Source of the DNA: Defluviicoccus sp.
Lineage (GTDB): Bacteria; Pseudomonadota; Alphaproteobacteria; MPNO01
Direction of reading: 5' to 3'
Assembly (NCBI GenBank): GCA_022826125.1
Contig: JAJDVM010000309.1
Coordinates: 1-50,580 of the forward strand
Length of the DNA stretch: 50,580 bases
The notes beneath the pieces are model-generated. The model was not told the DNA's origin. It searched no databases and worked only from the letters and a program-made list of their open reading frames with translations. Made by a program: the position numbers and the translations under genes. This document shows positions 36,960 through 42,246 of this stretch, in pieces; position 1 is the stretch's first letter; each line of letters starts with the position of its first letter.

Positions 36960-37325
36960 GTGGCGGAAATTTACGTCGGCAAGGAAGACGAGTTCGGCGA
37001 GCGCGATCGGAAGATCATCGCCCAGGGCGATCTCGAGATCGGCATCTTCTTCGTGGGCGGGGAGTTCTACGCCTACGAGAACAACTGCGTCCACCAGGGC
37101 GGGCCGGTCTGCCAGGGCAAGATCCTCGGCAAGGTGGAGGAGGTGCTGGGCGAGGACAAGACCTCGAAGGGTTTGCGCTTCTCGGAAAGCGACATCCACA
37201 TCGTCTGCCCCTGGCACGGCTACGAATACAACATCAAGACCGGCCGCCACCCCGGCGACAGGAACGTCCGGCTCAGGCCCTACGACGTGAAGGTCGCGGA
37301 CGGAGAGGTGTATGTCGTCGTCTGA
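36960..37325 (+). CDS. Rieske [2Fe-2S] ferredoxin-like protein
   Basis: Single-domain Rieske protein of 121 residues that would carry electrons or sense redox state in the cytoplasm; it has no signal peptide. Cluster ligands are Cys43 and His45 in NNCVHQGGPVCQGK and Cys83 and His86 in IVCPWHGYEYN. Between the two ligand loops there is an inserted, charged segment (about 52-80). The GTG start has GGAGGATCCG upstream. No Rieske oxygenase alpha subunit or reductase is nearby; instead it overlaps an unknown small gene and an amidohydrolase gene follows, so its partner is unclear. Confidence 0.9.
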   Translation: MAEIYVGKEDEFGERDRKIIAQGDLEIGIFFVGGEFYAYENNCVHQGGPVCQGKILGKVEEVLGEDKTSKGLRFSESDIHIVCPWHGYEYNIKTGRHPGDRNVRLRPYDVKVADGEVYVVV

Positions 37326-37644
37326 CGACGACCGCGCGCCCGACCTGGACGCGCTGGGAGAAGCGACGGCAAAGGCGCTCGCGATCGCCGAGAAGGCGCT
37401 CGACGACGGGACCACGGACGCGGTCCCGGACGAGATGGTGCAGCGGCTGCTGACCGCGGGCACGAGGCTGTTCGCCAACAAGGTGGAGATGGAAGACCGG
37501 GTGTTCCGGCCCTTCGTGTCCGCCGAATCGGCGACGGCGACCGATGTCGTGGTGACGGTGACGGAAATGCTTCACGCGGCGAACCTGAACACGTTCGACC
37601 TCGCGATGTGGTTCCGCAGGCCGCGCCCCGGCACGGACGACTGA
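37312..37644 (+). CDS. Uncharacterised 110-residue protein of the Rieske/amidohydrolase unit
   Basis: I do not recognise this family. The product has an acidic N-terminus (SSSDDDRAPDLDALGEA), then helical segments (ALAIAEKALDD, EMVQRLLTAGTRLFANKVEM) and a C-terminal helix with TVTEMLHAANLNTFDLAMW. There is no signal, membrane helix or metal motif. It overlaps the Rieske gene by 14 bases and precedes the amidohydrolase by 13 bases, so the three are probably translated together. Its size and helical make-up fit an accessory or adaptor subunit; this is inference. Confidence 0.75.
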   Translation: MSSSDDDRAPDLDALGEATAKALAIAEKALDDGTTDAVPDEMVQRLLTAGTRLFANKVEMEDRVFRPFVSAESATATDVVVTVTEMLHAANLNTFDLAMWFRRPRPGTDD

Positions 37645-37657
37645 AGGAGCGGAGACG

Positions 37658-38866
37658 ATGGACAGCGGACTCGAACCCCTGCGCGAGAACCCGGTCAGGC
37701 AGATCGACGTATCGACCGACACCAGGGAGATCCTCGCGCGCGCCAGGCGCCAGGCCGATGAGCGGAACTTCGACGACGTTTTCATCGTCGACATGGATTC
37801 CCACCATACCGAGAGCGAGTCCTGGGCCGACATCATCTCCTATCTCGACGACGAGGTGATCCGCTCCCAGGCGCTCGACTACCTGCAGAACCGGACCGGC
37901 ACGCCGCCCTACGGGCTCAACGGCGACCTGGCGCTGCGCTACCAGGATTGCGGCGGACGCATTCCGCATCAGGCGGCGCGCCGCGAGGATGCACGCGAGA
38001 ACGGACTCCACCGCGACGTGGTGCTGGCCAAGCGGGCGTACGAGTCGATGTCGATCGACAAGCAGATCGTCTTTCCGACGCCGATGCTGTTCCTCGGCAT
38101 GCACCCGCAGTTCGACATGGAGCCGCTGCTCGGCAACGCCTACAACCGCTGGACCGTCGACACGCTGCTCGCGCAGGACGACAGGCTCAAGTCGATGGCG
38201 TTCCTGCCGTTCAACGACGCCGACGAGGCGCTGAAGACGGTCGAGGAGTTCGGCGACGCGCCGGGCGTGGTGGGATTCATGGTCACCTCGGTGCGCAACA
38301 AGCCGGTCCACCACAACCACTACATGAAGGTCTACCGCGCGCTCGAGCAGCGCGGCCTACCGCTGGGATTCCATGCCGGCTATTACTGGCAGGACCCCTC
38401 GATGATGCAGATCAACCGCTTCGGCTCGATGCACGCGCTCTCCTTCGTCTGGTGCAACGTGGTCCACTGCACCAACTGGGTGATGAACGGCCTGCCCGAG
38501 CGCTTCCCGGGCCTCCCGGTGGTGTGGATCGAAAGCGGGCTCTCCTGGGTGCCGTGGCTGATGCAGCGCCTCGATCACACCTACATGATGCGCACCTCGG
38601 AGGCGCCGCTCCTGAAGCGGAAGCCGAGCGAGTACATGGCGGAGATGTATTACACCTCGCAGCCGCTGGAGACCGACAACCTGAAGGCGCTCGAGCTCAC
38701 CTTCGAGATGACCGCCGCCAGGACCCAGCTGCTCTACGCGTCCGACTGGCCGCACTGGGACTTCGACCCGCCGGCGGTGATCTGGGACATCCCGTTCCTC
38801 GACGACGAGGCCCGCAAGAACATCCTCGGCCTCAACGCGAAGCGCATCTTCGACCTGGAGAAGTAG
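37658..38866 (+). CDS. Amidohydrolase family protein (amidohydro_2, ACMSD-like)
   Basis: TIM-barrel metal-dependent hydrolase or decarboxylase of 402 residues. The first metal motif is altered: VFIVDMDSHHTESES (Asp45, Asp47, His49, His50) in place of a plain DxHxH. Later sites are the histidine in LPLGFHAGYYW, VVWIESGLSWVPWLMQRLDH and the aspartate in YASDWPHWDFDPP, all typical of the ACMSD/gamma-resorcylate decarboxylase branch. The acyl or carboxyl substrate is unknown. It ends the eight-gene run that began with phaC and is tightly coupled to the Rieske and 110-residue genes. Confidence 0.87.
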   Translation: MDSGLEPLRENPVRQIDVSTDTREILARARRQADERNFDDVFIVDMDSHHTESESWADIISYLDDEVIRSQALDYLQNRTGTPPYGLNGDLALRYQDCGGRIPHQAARREDARENGLHRDVVLAKRAYESMSIDKQIVFPTPMLFLGMHPQFDMEPLLGNAYNRWTVDTLLAQDDRLKSMAFLPFNDADEALKTVEEFGDAPGVVGFMVTSVRNKPVHHNHYMKVYRALEQRGLPLGFHAGYYWQDPSMMQINRFGSMHALSFVWCNVVHCTNWVMNGLPERFPGLPVVWIESGLSWVPWLMQRLDHTYMMRTSEAPLLKRKPSEYMAEMYYTSQPLETDNLKALELTFEMTAARTQLLYASDWPHWDFDPPAVIWDIPFLDDEARKNILGLNAKRIFDLEK

Positions 38867-38875
38867 GGCCCCTAC
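38863..38875. terminator. Palindrome spanning two convergent stop codons
   Basis: GTAGGG-C-CCCTAC is a perfect 6-1-6 palindrome. The stop codon of the amidohydrolase (TAG 38864-38866) and that of the convergent GNAT gene (38872-38874 on the minus strand) are both inside it. It is too short for a confident terminator but could act in both directions. Confidence 0.25.
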
Positions 38876-39804
38876 CGCCAGTCGTCGATCGCGTAGATGC
38901 CGGGAACCCCGTAGCCCTCGCCCGCCGGGCGGAGCATGGCGACGGCGTTCATGAAGCTCGCATAGCCGCGCTCGCGGAGGATGCGGTAGGCCTCGCGGCG
39001 GCCGGTGTTGGTGCCGGCGGCGATGGCCTCGGCGCCGCGACGGGCCGCGAGCGCTTCGCAAGCCGCGAGCAGCGCGTGCATATCCTCCGCCGCGTTCGGA
39101 CCGGACCTTACCGCCGCGGCCTTCACGAACAGGAGCGCCGAATTGCCCTCGCTGCCGGCGCCGTGGTGGCACACGGCATAACCCGTGAGCCCCTCCCCGC
39201 CGTCCGAGCGCGCGAGCAATACCGTTTCGCCGAGCCCGTGGTGGAGCACCGAGGCGATCTCGCGCGTGTGGTCGAGCCCGGTCCGGACCGTGTCGGCGAC
39301 CTCGCGACAGGCGGCGCACTCGCCGATGTCGGTCAGCAGCCCCGCGCGGTCGGGCATCGCGGCCGGCCGCGCCTCGCGCCGCAGGACCGCGATCGGGCGT
39401 TGAAGCTCGAAACCATAGGATTCGTAGAGCCTGACATGGCGCGTACTCTGGGGGTGGGTCAACAATCCGACGAAATCGTGGCCCCGCGAATCGAGAAGGT
39501 CGAGCATCGCTTCGGTAAGGCGCCGCCCGATCCCCGAGCTCCAGCGATCCGGATGGACGGTGAGCGGCCCGAACAGGCCGACGCGGCCCCAGTTCGTTAC
39601 CACGCCGGAGCCGACGACGCCGTCTTCGGTCCTGGCGACCAGCACGCCGGACGGGTCGGTGAGGTAGCGCGGCCGGACGAGCGCTCCGTCGCCGCGGAAG
39701 GAGACGGGGTCGGGGAGGCCGAAAAACGTCCCGAAAGCGAGCCGGCAGACATGTTCGGCCGCCTCGACGTCGGACTCGGCGAGAGGCCTGATCTCGATCG
39801 TCAT
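38872..39804 (-). CDS. GNAT family N-acetyltransferase (double domain)
   Basis: Acetyl-CoA-dependent transferase of 310 residues. The N-terminal domain starts MTIEIRPLAESDVEAAEHV and has the acetyl-CoA loop in SSGIGRRLTEAMLDLLDSRG followed by LYESYGFELQRP. The second half (about 165-310) resembles a degenerate GNAT domain, with LTGYAVCHHGAGSEGNSALL and MHALLAACEALAARRGAEAI. The acceptor is not known. Its start overlaps the FAH-family gene stop by four bases, so it belongs to that operon. Confidence 0.83.
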   Translation of the reverse strand: MTIEIRPLAESDVEAAEHVCRLAFGTFFGLPDPVSFRGDGALVRPRYLTDPSGVLVARTEDGVVGSGVVTNWGRVGLFGPLTVHPDRWSSGIGRRLTEAMLDLLDSRGHDFVGLLTHPQSTRHVRLYESYGFELQRPIAVLRREARPAAMPDRAGLLTDIGECAACREVADTVRTGLDHTREIASVLHHGLGETVLLARSDGGEGLTGYAVCHHGAGSEGNSALLFVKAAAVRSGPNAAEDMHALLAACEALAARRGAEAIAAGTNTGRREAYRILRERGYASFMNAVAMLRPAGEGYGVPGIYAIDDWR

Positions 39805-40658
39805 TCTGCCGCCCGGACGGAGACCTCCATCGCGCCGATGCCCTCGATCTCGCAGCGCATGACGTCGCCGGGTTGAACCGGTCCGACTCCCTCGGGCGTG
39901 CCGGTCATGATCACGTCGCCGGGATAGAGGGTGTAATGCCGCGACGCGTAGGCGATCAGCCTGCGGCAGTCGAATATCTGCTTCGCGGTGGTCGAATCCT
40001 GGCGCAGCTCGCCGTTCACCCAGAGCCGGAGCGCGAGCGCGTCGGGGTCGTCGATCTCGTCGGCGGTGACCAGCCAGGGGCCGAGCACCGAGTACGAGTC
40101 GATGGCCTTGCGGAGACTGCGGTCCTCGCGGCCCCGCACCGTCATGTCCAGGCCGATCGCATAGCCCGCGACGCAGTCGAGCGCCTCCGCCTCGGCAACG
40201 TCCTTAACCGTCCGGCCGATCACCATCGCAAGCTCGACCTCGTGGTCGTTGCGCCGGTCGGTGTAGCGGAGCGCGACGCCCTCGGAAGGCCCGACCGGGA
40301 CCGGGTTCTTGAGGAACAGCCCGTATTCGTCGATGGCGCTCGTCGTCGCACCGAAGGTGATCCCGGGATCGGCATTGGCTTCGTCGATATGGGCGCGATA
40401 GTTGGCCGGAGCGCCGATCACCTTGGTCGGGTTGGCGACCGGACTCAGCAGCGACACGCTCTCGTGGAGCTGGACGAAGCCCCATTTGCGCCGTTCTTCC
40501 ACGTCGGCCCGGACGGCGTCGAGCGCGGCGATCAACCTGTCCCCCGACGGCAGCGGCCAGCGCCATTCCCCGGCCGCTTCGATGGCCTCGGTGACGTCGA
40601 TCAGCTGCTCGCCCACCACGAGGCCGAGCTTCTGGTCGTTATAGCGGCAGAGCTTCAT
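39801..40658 (-). CDS. Fumarylacetoacetate hydrolase family protein
   Basis: FAH-fold enzyme of 285 residues. The segment VIGAPANYRAHIDEAN, the metal site in NDHEVELAMVIGRTVKDV and in YAIGLDMTVRGREDRSLRK, and the closing YPGDVIMTGTPEGVGPVQPGD are family signatures. Members act as 2-oxo-acid decarboxylases, hydratases or C-C bond hydrolases. Nine bases upstream lies an acid-sugar-type dehydratase gene, so hydrolysis of a 2,4-diketo-3-deoxy acid, as in the oxidative fucose and rhamnose routes, is a reasonable guess. It overlaps the GNAT gene. Confidence 0.88.
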   Translation of the reverse strand: MKLCRYNDQKLGLVVGEQLIDVTEAIEAAGEWRWPLPSGDRLIAALDAVRADVEERRKWGFVQLHESVSLLSPVANPTKVIGAPANYRAHIDEANADPGITFGATTSAIDEYGLFLKNPVPVGPSEGVALRYTDRRNDHEVELAMVIGRTVKDVAEAEALDCVAGYAIGLDMTVRGREDRSLRKAIDSYSVLGPWLVTADEIDDPDALALRLWVNGELRQDSTTAKQIFDCRRLIAYASRHYTLYPGDVIMTGTPEGVGPVQPGDVMRCEIEGIGAMEVSVRAAE

Positions 40659-40667
40659 CGGAACGCC

Positions 40668-41756
40668 TCAATCCCGGACGCGGTACTCTTCGCGGACGCC
40701 GGTGGCCCACGCGAGCCCGTGGCCCGGCGCGTCGCCGGGCGTCATCGATCCATTTTCGTCCATCGCGAGGGGGGTGTCGAACAGGGGCTCGAGCAGTGGA
40801 AAGTCCTCGAGCCAGCGAACGTTGGGCGACGCACAGGCGAGGTGGACGAACAGCGCCGGCAGGAAATGGGGCGAGACGGAGACGTCGTGATACTCGGCGA
40901 TCCGCGCCGCCCGCAAACATTCGCTTATCCCGCCCATCATCGCGAGGTCGGGCTGGAGTACCGCGCACGCATCGTTCGAGAAATAGGGTTTGAGCTCGAC
41001 CGCGCCCTGCAGGTGTTCGCCGGTCGCGATCGGCACAGGCGATCGCGAGGAGAGCGTCGCATAGCCGTGCAGCGCGTCTGCCGGCAGGGGCTCCTCCAGC
41101 CAGAGCGCATTGACGGCGGCGCATTCGTTAGCGAGCCAGAGCGCGCGGGCGAGATCGCATCGCTCGTTCGCGTCGACCATCAGTTCGACGCCGTCGGGCA
41201 ACGCATCGGCAACCGCGCGCATCCGCGCGACGTCGGCCCGGTTCCCCGCGACCCGAAGCTTGACCGCCCTGCACCCCCGCCCGGCATAGGCGAGCGCCCG
41301 GGCGACCGCGGCGTCGGGGTCCTGGTGGGGCCGGAACCCGCCGGAGCCGTACACCGGAACGGTCCGCGCGACGCCGCCGAGCGCGGCATAAAGCGGCATC
41401 CCGGACGCGCGCGCGTGCAGGTCCCAGGCGGCGAGGTCGATGGCAGCGATCGCGACATAGCCGATCCCTCGTCCGACACGATTGAGCGAAGCGGCGAGCC
41501 GCCGCCACAGAGCTTCGGGCGGCACGCAACCCTCACCGGCGACGAAGCGCGACAGGAGGTCGTCGGCCGCCGCCTTCACCACCGCGCCCCCTCCGCCAAG
41601 CACGTAGCTGAAACCGAGCCCCGTCTCCCCTCCGGAATCCTCCAGCGAGACGACGATGACATCGACGGCGGTGATGCCCGAGCCGCCGGTCGGCCCCGCG
41701 AGCGGGTAACGCCAGAGCTCCGCCTCGGCCCTCACGTAGCGTCTCGCGCCCGGCAC
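40668..41756 (-). CDS. Enolase-superfamily dehydratase (mandelate racemase/muconate lactonizing group)
   Basis: Mg-dependent enzyme of 362 residues. Metal ligands are Asp195 in LMVDANERC, a glutamate in WLEEPLPAD (221-222) and Glu247 in IATGEHLQG. The general acid/base pair is Asp270 in LQPDLAMMGG and His297 in SVSPHFLPAL, as in mandelate-racemase-type acid sugar dehydratases. The usual K-x-K on the second strand is K166-L-R168. The start is a GTG 4 bases after the stop of the DUF120 gene. An acid-sugar dehydratase is the best reading; the substrate is unknown. Confidence 0.87.
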   Translation of the reverse strand: MPGARRYVRAEAELWRYPLAGPTGGSGITAVDVIVVSLEDSGGETGLGFSYVLGGGGAVVKAAADDLLSRFVAGEGCVPPEALWRRLAASLNRVGRGIGYVAIAAIDLAAWDLHARASGMPLYAALGGVARTVPVYGSGGFRPHQDPDAAVARALAYAGRGCRAVKLRVAGNRADVARMRAVADALPDGVELMVDANERCDLARALWLANECAAVNALWLEEPLPADALHGYATLSSRSPVPIATGEHLQGAVELKPYFSNDACAVLQPDLAMMGGISECLRAARIAEYHDVSVSPHFLPALFVHLACASPNVRWLEDFPLLEPLFDTPLAMDENGSMTPGDAPGHGLAWATGVREEYRVRD

Positions 41757-41760
41757 CGCC

Positions 41761-42168
41761 TCAGCCCTCCACCCGCTCGATCGTCAGGGTCACTGGATCG
41801 CCGTCCTCGACGTCCAGCGCCTCGCGCAGATCGACTTCGGCGACGATCTCGACCTGGGCGGGCGGATAGCCGTCGACTTCGGGGTAGACGATGGCCCCGT
41901 CGATCCGCCCGTCCACCTTCACGGGGTAGCAGCGCGCGTCGCAATCGTGCGGACCGTCATTGGGGTTTTCCATCCGAATGCCGGGTGTCCGCCTGAGCCG
42001 CACCCACACGGGCATCGCGTCGGGATCGTCGACGACGATGTTGAAGGTGCCGGGCCAGGGATCGATTCCCAGCCGTCCGACGAACTGTTCGAGCGCCCAG
42101 GGAAGCCGGGTGAAATGCCTGCCCTGCCCGATGCCGCTGGCGACCCGGCCCCTGATTTCCCCGGTCAT
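41761..42168 (-). CDS. DUF120 domain protein (archaeal CTP-dependent riboflavin kinase-like)
   Basis: A 135-residue protein that looks like the single-domain archaeal riboflavin kinase RibK (DUF120), which phosphorylates riboflavin with CTP. Matching features are IRGRVASGIGQGRHFTRL at the N-terminus, PWPGTFNIVVDD with the Thr-x-Asn metal site (Thr41, Asn43), and the C-terminal VEIVAEVDLREALDVEDGD. Residues CDARC in the middle are unusual. ATG 42168 has GAGAGGAAC upstream. It sits first in an operon with an enolase-type dehydratase and an FAH-family enzyme rather than with riboflavin genes, so it may phosphorylate something else or modulate flavin supply. Family call is from motif memory, not a search. 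Confidence 0.7.
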   Translation of the reverse strand: MTGEIRGRVASGIGQGRHFTRLPWALEQFVGRLGIDPWPGTFNIVVDDPDAMPVWVRLRRTPGIRMENPNDGPHDCDARCYPVKVDGRIDGAIVYPEVDGYPPAQVEIVAEVDLREALDVEDGDPVTLTIERVEG

Positions 42169-42246
42169 GCCGTTCCTCTCGTTCAAGCCGCGTCCGTGAG
42201 GGTAATGGCAGCGGCGGGACCGCGGGTCCAGCGAAATTGGTTGCGC

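Follow-up and report, generated by a model that had tools for sequence, protein, structure and literature searches.

Throughout the order to which the Defluviicoccus sp. contig analyzed here belongs, a DUF120 gene and a dehydratase gene form a unit in genomes that also encode RibF, which suggests a CTP-driven kinase with a target other than routine FMN supply. The unit lies within the window, i.e., the whole stretch of 50,580 nucleotides that was analyzed, and its DUF120 protein is likely a CTP-dependent kinase, with CTP use and kinase activity both being inferred. An intermediate of the pathway formed by the dehydratase and a fumarylacetoacetate hydrolase (FAH)-family hydrolase would be its acceptor, an assignment to which we give somewhat less than an even chance. 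In a bacterium, the preliminary description had considered such a protein unexpected. DUF120 is indeed unusual there, but hardly a surprise, as it belongs to the core of this order and has a patchy occurrence in other bacterial groups.

The open reading frame proposed previously is a real gene for a protein of 135 aa, with an ATG preceded by a Shine-Dalgarno sequence (Table 1), and the RibK motifs ascribed to it (GRVASGIGQG, PGTFN, and LREALDVEDGD) are all present. The protein matches the PF01982 profile over its full length (positions 1–121 of 121; 100.8 bits, the cut-off being 25; E = 6.3e-29), and among PDB sequences it matches only MJ0056 and Ta1064, both of them riboflavin kinases (E = 4e-13 to 3e-12). 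The scores for the NCBIfam RibK equivalogs are far below the cut-offs (NF010762, 87 versus 279 bits; NF040694, 60.8 versus 168 bits). An AlphaFold2 model built with 9 homologs (mean pLDDT 88.8) shows the RibK cradle-loop barrel fold; Foldseek matched it to the CTP complex of RbkR (5trd, TM 0.84–0.86) and to MJ0056 (2vbu, TM 0.77; 2vbs; 2vbv), all with E values around 1e-8, and returned no significant match besides RbkR and MJ0056 structures. Furthermore, comparison with 2 Defluviicoccus relatives (dN 0.037 and 0.060; dS 0.29 and 0.44; dN/dS approximately 0.13) shows that the gene is under purifying selection. In view of the Pfam match and the dN/dS ratio, we rejected a chance or spurious ORF.

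Table 1. Location of the DUF120 gene, its motifs, and its operon partners within the window.
Feature	Position	Strand	Basis and remarks
DUF120 (PF01982) kinase-like gene, 135 aa	41761..42168	-	Pfam, PDB matches, AlphaFold2 model, Foldseek
Shine-Dalgarno GAGAGG of the DUF120 gene	42175..42180	-	Sequence; 6 nt upstream of ATG at 42168
SGIGQGRHF, glycine-rich loop, residues 11-19	42112..42138	-	Alignment (36 bacterial, 58 archaeal sequences)
PGTFN, Thr41/Asn43 equivalent to MJ0056 Thr43/Asn45	42040..42054	-	Alignment
CDARC, Cys76	41929..41943	-	Alignment
VDGY, residues 98-101	41866..41877	-	Alignment
LREALDVEDGD, end motif	41797..41829	-	Sequence; R115, D122, and G123 common with archaea
Enolase-superfamily protein, mandelate racemase (MR) subgroup	40668..41756	-	PF13378, E=5e-54
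FAH-family hydrolase	39801..40658	-	PF01557, E=4e-52
GNAT protein	38872..39804	-	PF00583, E=1e-10; 4-nt overlap with FAH stop
Divergent cassette, 3 genes	36960..38866	+	Pfam, neighbourhood comparison
Rieske ferredoxin (cassette)	36960-37325	+	
110-aa protein without Pfam match (cassette)	37312-37644	+	
Amidohydro_2 (cassette)	37658-38866	+	

In fold, domain length, glycine loop, PGTxN, the conserved Glu, and the R...DGD end, the window protein equals archaeal RibK (MJ0056) and RbkR (Ta1064). When 36 bacterial DUF120 sequences are aligned with 58 archaeal ones, the nucleotide/Mg positions G12, G14, P39-G40-T41, N43, E107, R115, D122, and G123 are common to both groups, and the Mg/phosphate motifs, i.e., the glycine loop and PGTxN, are invariant or nearly so in each, with the Thr and Asn of PGTxN being invariant across all rows. 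Their counterparts in MJ0056, Thr43 and Asn45, are presumably the Mg ligands. The previously proposed kinase function is therefore probably right, given the modeled DUF120 fold together with these intact motifs. To our knowledge, few small-molecule kinases depend on CTP, and no acceptor besides riboflavin is known for DUF120.

About a dozen positions separate the bacterial DUF120s from the archaeal RibKs. The archaeal Y-Y at the end of the glycine-rich loop is replaced by F at 18–19 followed by T20, G-Y by W-[AV] at 24–25, G-F by [PN]-P at 68–69, and R-[TS]-[H], a triplet close to the conserved Glu, by V-x-x at 98–100. Cys76 is invariant within the bacterial clade, whereas nearly all archaeal RibKs have Gly at this position. 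This results in the signatures F-T, W-[AV], C-x-A, and V-x-x-Y for the bacterial clade versus Y-Y, G-Y, G, and R-[TS]-x-[YH] for archaea, the last one preceding Glu107. The Thr of the archaeal R-T triplet and the conserved Glu of MJ0056 are taken here to be FMN contacts; of these presumed flavin-side positions, the window protein has kept the Glu and lost the Arg-Thr. A new substrate, as suggested in the preliminary description, is plausible, and the altered positions close to the flavin-site Glu would count in its favor. Nothing was found that identifies an acid sugar, also brought up there, as the acceptor.

The enolase-superfamily, FAH, and GNAT neighbors recognized earlier from the sequence were borne out by Pfam. 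DUF120, enolase, FAH, and GNAT genes follow one another with gaps of 4, 9, and −4 nt, the first separating the DUF120 stop from the enolase start. The nearest named PDB enzyme to the enolase is L-talarate/galactarate dehydratase (E = 4e-47), with which, as with other MR enolases, it shares the 3 metal ligands (D/E/E) and the His-Asp dyad, all conserved in the orthologs of the order (DANE [DxNE], EEP, GEH, QPD, PH). It differs from them in having K-x-R in place of K-x-K, and its best NCBIfam equivalog, TalGalacDh, stays below the cut-off (210 versus 500 bits). For the FAH protein, the nearest PDB entry is maleylpyruvate hydrolase (E = 4e-56). The DUF1537 acid-sugar kinases set a precedent for a DUF kinase in acid-sugar catabolism, and there too a kinase-like gene lies beside acid-sugar-type enzymes; that family is not known to be related to DUF120, and we found no domain common to both. 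The divergent Rieske/110-aa/Amidohydro_2 cassette is kept beside the DUF120-enolase pair in 2 families of the order. In a further genome (G298, L164:9639-11557), the same cassette adjoins a 46% identical enolase with no DUF120 beside it; the kinase is thus dispensable in some forms of the pathway.

The association with the enolase turned out to be much stronger than could be known from the window. DUF120 was detected in 24 of the 27 genomes of the order and the orthologous MR-type enolase in 25, and every DUF120 gene is located directly upstream of this enolase on the same strand (24/24, by coordinates), with a stop-to-start gap of −8 to 21 nt wherever both genes are readable (at L144, set apart from this range, the enolase frame is broken). 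The only enolase ortholog without DUF120 is that of G761, where just 55 nt separate its start from the end of a contig, and the 2 genomes devoid of both genes are 67 and 79% complete. The closest named genomes, the Defluviicoccus MAGs L026 and L027, have the same gene order as the window, and the gene is present in all 5 genomes of the genus, which led us to reject contamination or an archaeal contig. Across the order, FAH, CaiB, SDR, class II aldolase, amidohydrolase, and Rieske genes recur near the pair; the neighborhood comparison revealed no flavin-dependent gene conserved next to it. In one genome (G756; L125, L126, L127, L150, L151), contig C4 carries a second copy of the pair in which both the DUF120 and the enolase gene are interrupted by stop codons, and contig C6 carries a frame-broken DUF120 adjoining an intact enolase; the pair seems to be duplicated and decaying, or the assembly faulty there.

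Outside the order, DUF120 is rare. A class sample of 385 genomes contained 8 others with DUF120, the match being weak in several cases, and a phylum sample of 398 contained 2, one of which is the genome of the window itself; E. coli, included in the control set, had no PF01982 match. Further bacterial occurrences are scattered among Betaproteobacteria, Bacillota, Chloroflexota, Rokubacteria, and Desulfuromonadales. In other Alphaproteobacteria, very divergent DUF120-like proteins are encoded in unrelated surroundings (L023:9478-10044, L106, L024:9499-9918, L025:9679-10095), and a TauD-type dioxygenase gene directly follows DUF120 in 4 loci (L020:8764-10097, L022:8594-9945, L033:9953-11312, L035:9986-11312).

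The search for ribF elsewhere in the genome, advised in the preliminary description, was positive, and RibF is encoded in 27/27 genomes of the order; of 18 further bacterial genomes with DUF120 that we tested, 17 encode it too. Routine FMN synthesis in the order therefore does not depend on DUF120, and a role as the sole FMN maker was rejected. In this respect, and in lacking both an HTH domain and riboflavin genes nearby, the bacterial proteins differ from archaeal RibK/RbkR.

In a tree of 65 DUF120 sequences (L163 and L172 left out), 36 bacterial ones, including that of the window, form one group (99/91) separate from archaeal RibK. On the sequences, the bacterial DUF120s are thus a clade of their own. 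Long bacterial branches (L007, L062, L072) and a Bathyarchaeota sequence (L084) fall on the archaeal side with uncertain placement. The latter (L084:4555-4947) is a bacterial-type DUF120 and the only one in its MAG, which gave no RibF match and, at 0.9 Mb, is probably incomplete.

UbiX and/or UbiD are encoded within approximately 10 kb of DUF120 in Alphaproteobacteria (L030), Bacillota (L038, L039), Chloroflexota (L040), and Betaproteobacteria (L042, with L044 being similar but carrying a different label), as well as in L062 (UbiD only), L163, and L172. On plasmid pAZKH of Azoarcus sp. KH32C (L163), a phenol operon comprises phenylphosphate carboxylase, UbiD, and UbiX genes, followed by DUF120 (AZKH_RS23515) and a NUDIX gene, and this gene set recurs in another phenol-type cluster from Betaproteobacteria (L172). 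Both Bacillota loci combine LpdD-like PAC_bac, HAD, DUF120, and UbiD, with an additional dodecin in L038, and the Chloroflexota locus combines NUDIX, UbiX, PPOX, and DUF120. The set of UbiD, UbiX, DUF120, NUDIX/HAD, and PPOX-like/LpdD-like genes thus recurs (L163:6693-9979, L172:7444-9964, L040:6278-8448, L038:1606-5154) and is a possible prenyl-FMN supply module. HAD hydrolase-DUF120 fusions were also seen (L042:9995-11035, L043:3474-4517, L044:8732-9856, L173:8210-9259), with the domains in reverse order in L174:7745-8833; they are reminiscent of the HAD::riboflavin kinase fusion of plants. UbiX uses FMN and DMAP as substrates. In E. coli, NudJ converts DMAPP to DMAP (PMC12359138). LpdD is a prFMN chaperone (PMC10865409). 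The location of these DUF120s in UbiX/UbiD operons with NUDIX or HAD hydrolases points to prenyl-FMN supply, which is the simplest reading of these operons.

A flavin role is possible for the window protein as well, since its closest bacterial sister groups reside in UbiX/UbiD operons. DUF120 would then be a true CTP-dependent riboflavin kinase for dedicated, RibF-independent FMN synthesis, which feeds UbiX in the sister groups and was kept in the order after a move beside the enolase. The closest characterized relatives are indeed riboflavin kinases, the NUDIX/HAD hydrolases of the UbiX/UbiD clusters could make DMAP as the second UbiX substrate, the UbiX-linked lineages are basal in the tree with the enolase-linked ones nested, and the Bathyarchaeota MAG, incomplete as it probably is, has bacterial-type DUF120 without RibF. 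Most important, the DUF120s of the UbiX/UbiD operons (AZKH_RS23515, L038–L044, L172) have the same kept motifs as the window protein, and those placed in the tree (i.e., all except L163 and L172) belong to the same clade, while their neighbors are UbiX, UbiD, and NUDIX/HAD rather than an enolase and a FAH hydrolase. As these clade-mates have the same diagnostic residues and FMN making is the simplest role for them, they favor a flavin acceptor and are the strongest reason for caution about a non-flavin substrate. However, RibF accompanies DUF120 at the frequencies given above, UbiX/UbiD are absent from the window and were not seen in the conserved neighborhood of the order, and the bacterial clade lacks the R-[TS]-[H] triplet of archaea. 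On balance, we regard this flavin-based explanation as less likely than a pathway intermediate, though not by a wide margin.

An intermediate of the pathway is favored by the tight coupling to the dehydratase, the lack of conserved flavin genes beside the pair, the redundant RibF, and the altered residues. Accepting this, the bacterial-type kinase would bind CTP-Mg in its cradle-loop barrel like archaeal RibK and, with the gamma-phosphate as the group transferred, phosphorylate not bulk riboflavin but a hydroxyl group on some intermediate of the operon's catabolic route, in which the MR-type dehydratase would be followed by the FAH hydrolase. An obligate complex would likewise be consistent with the near-overlapping genes and the 24/24 co-occurrence; DUF120 would then no longer phosphorylate and would act as a CTP- or metabolite-binding regulator or a subunit of the enolase complex. 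This is quite improbable considering that the protein retains Thr41/Asn43, Glu107, Arg115, and the glycine loop and that dN/dS is low. We give least credence to a clade phosphorylating another cofactor-side alcohol, e.g., prenol (dimethylallyl alcohol), to yield DMAP for UbiX, with a later switch of alcohol in the enolase-linked branch: the UbiX operon context, the changed clade-specific residues, and the prenol-to-DMAP kinase route via ThiM in E. coli (PMC12359138) agree with it, but the NUDIX/HAD hydrolases of the same operons could already convert DMAPP to DMAP, those operons have no known prenol source, and the enolase operon shows no link to prenol.

For the family as a whole, we more guardedly propose that bacteria have a second branch of DUF120, made up of CTP-dependent kinases with a non-riboflavin acceptor, which in this order would be the obligate partner of an acid-sugar-type dehydratase. 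Our literature search on DUF120 in bacteria found nothing relevant, and the recurrence of DUF120 with UbiX, UbiD, and NUDIX/HAD hydrolases was mentioned nowhere in what it returned; this recurrence makes DUF120 look like an accessory of prenyl-FMN biosynthesis, which can be tested. Furthermore, the bacterial branch, with its own signature and kept alongside RibF, narrows the search for a new acceptor to a defined group of proteins.
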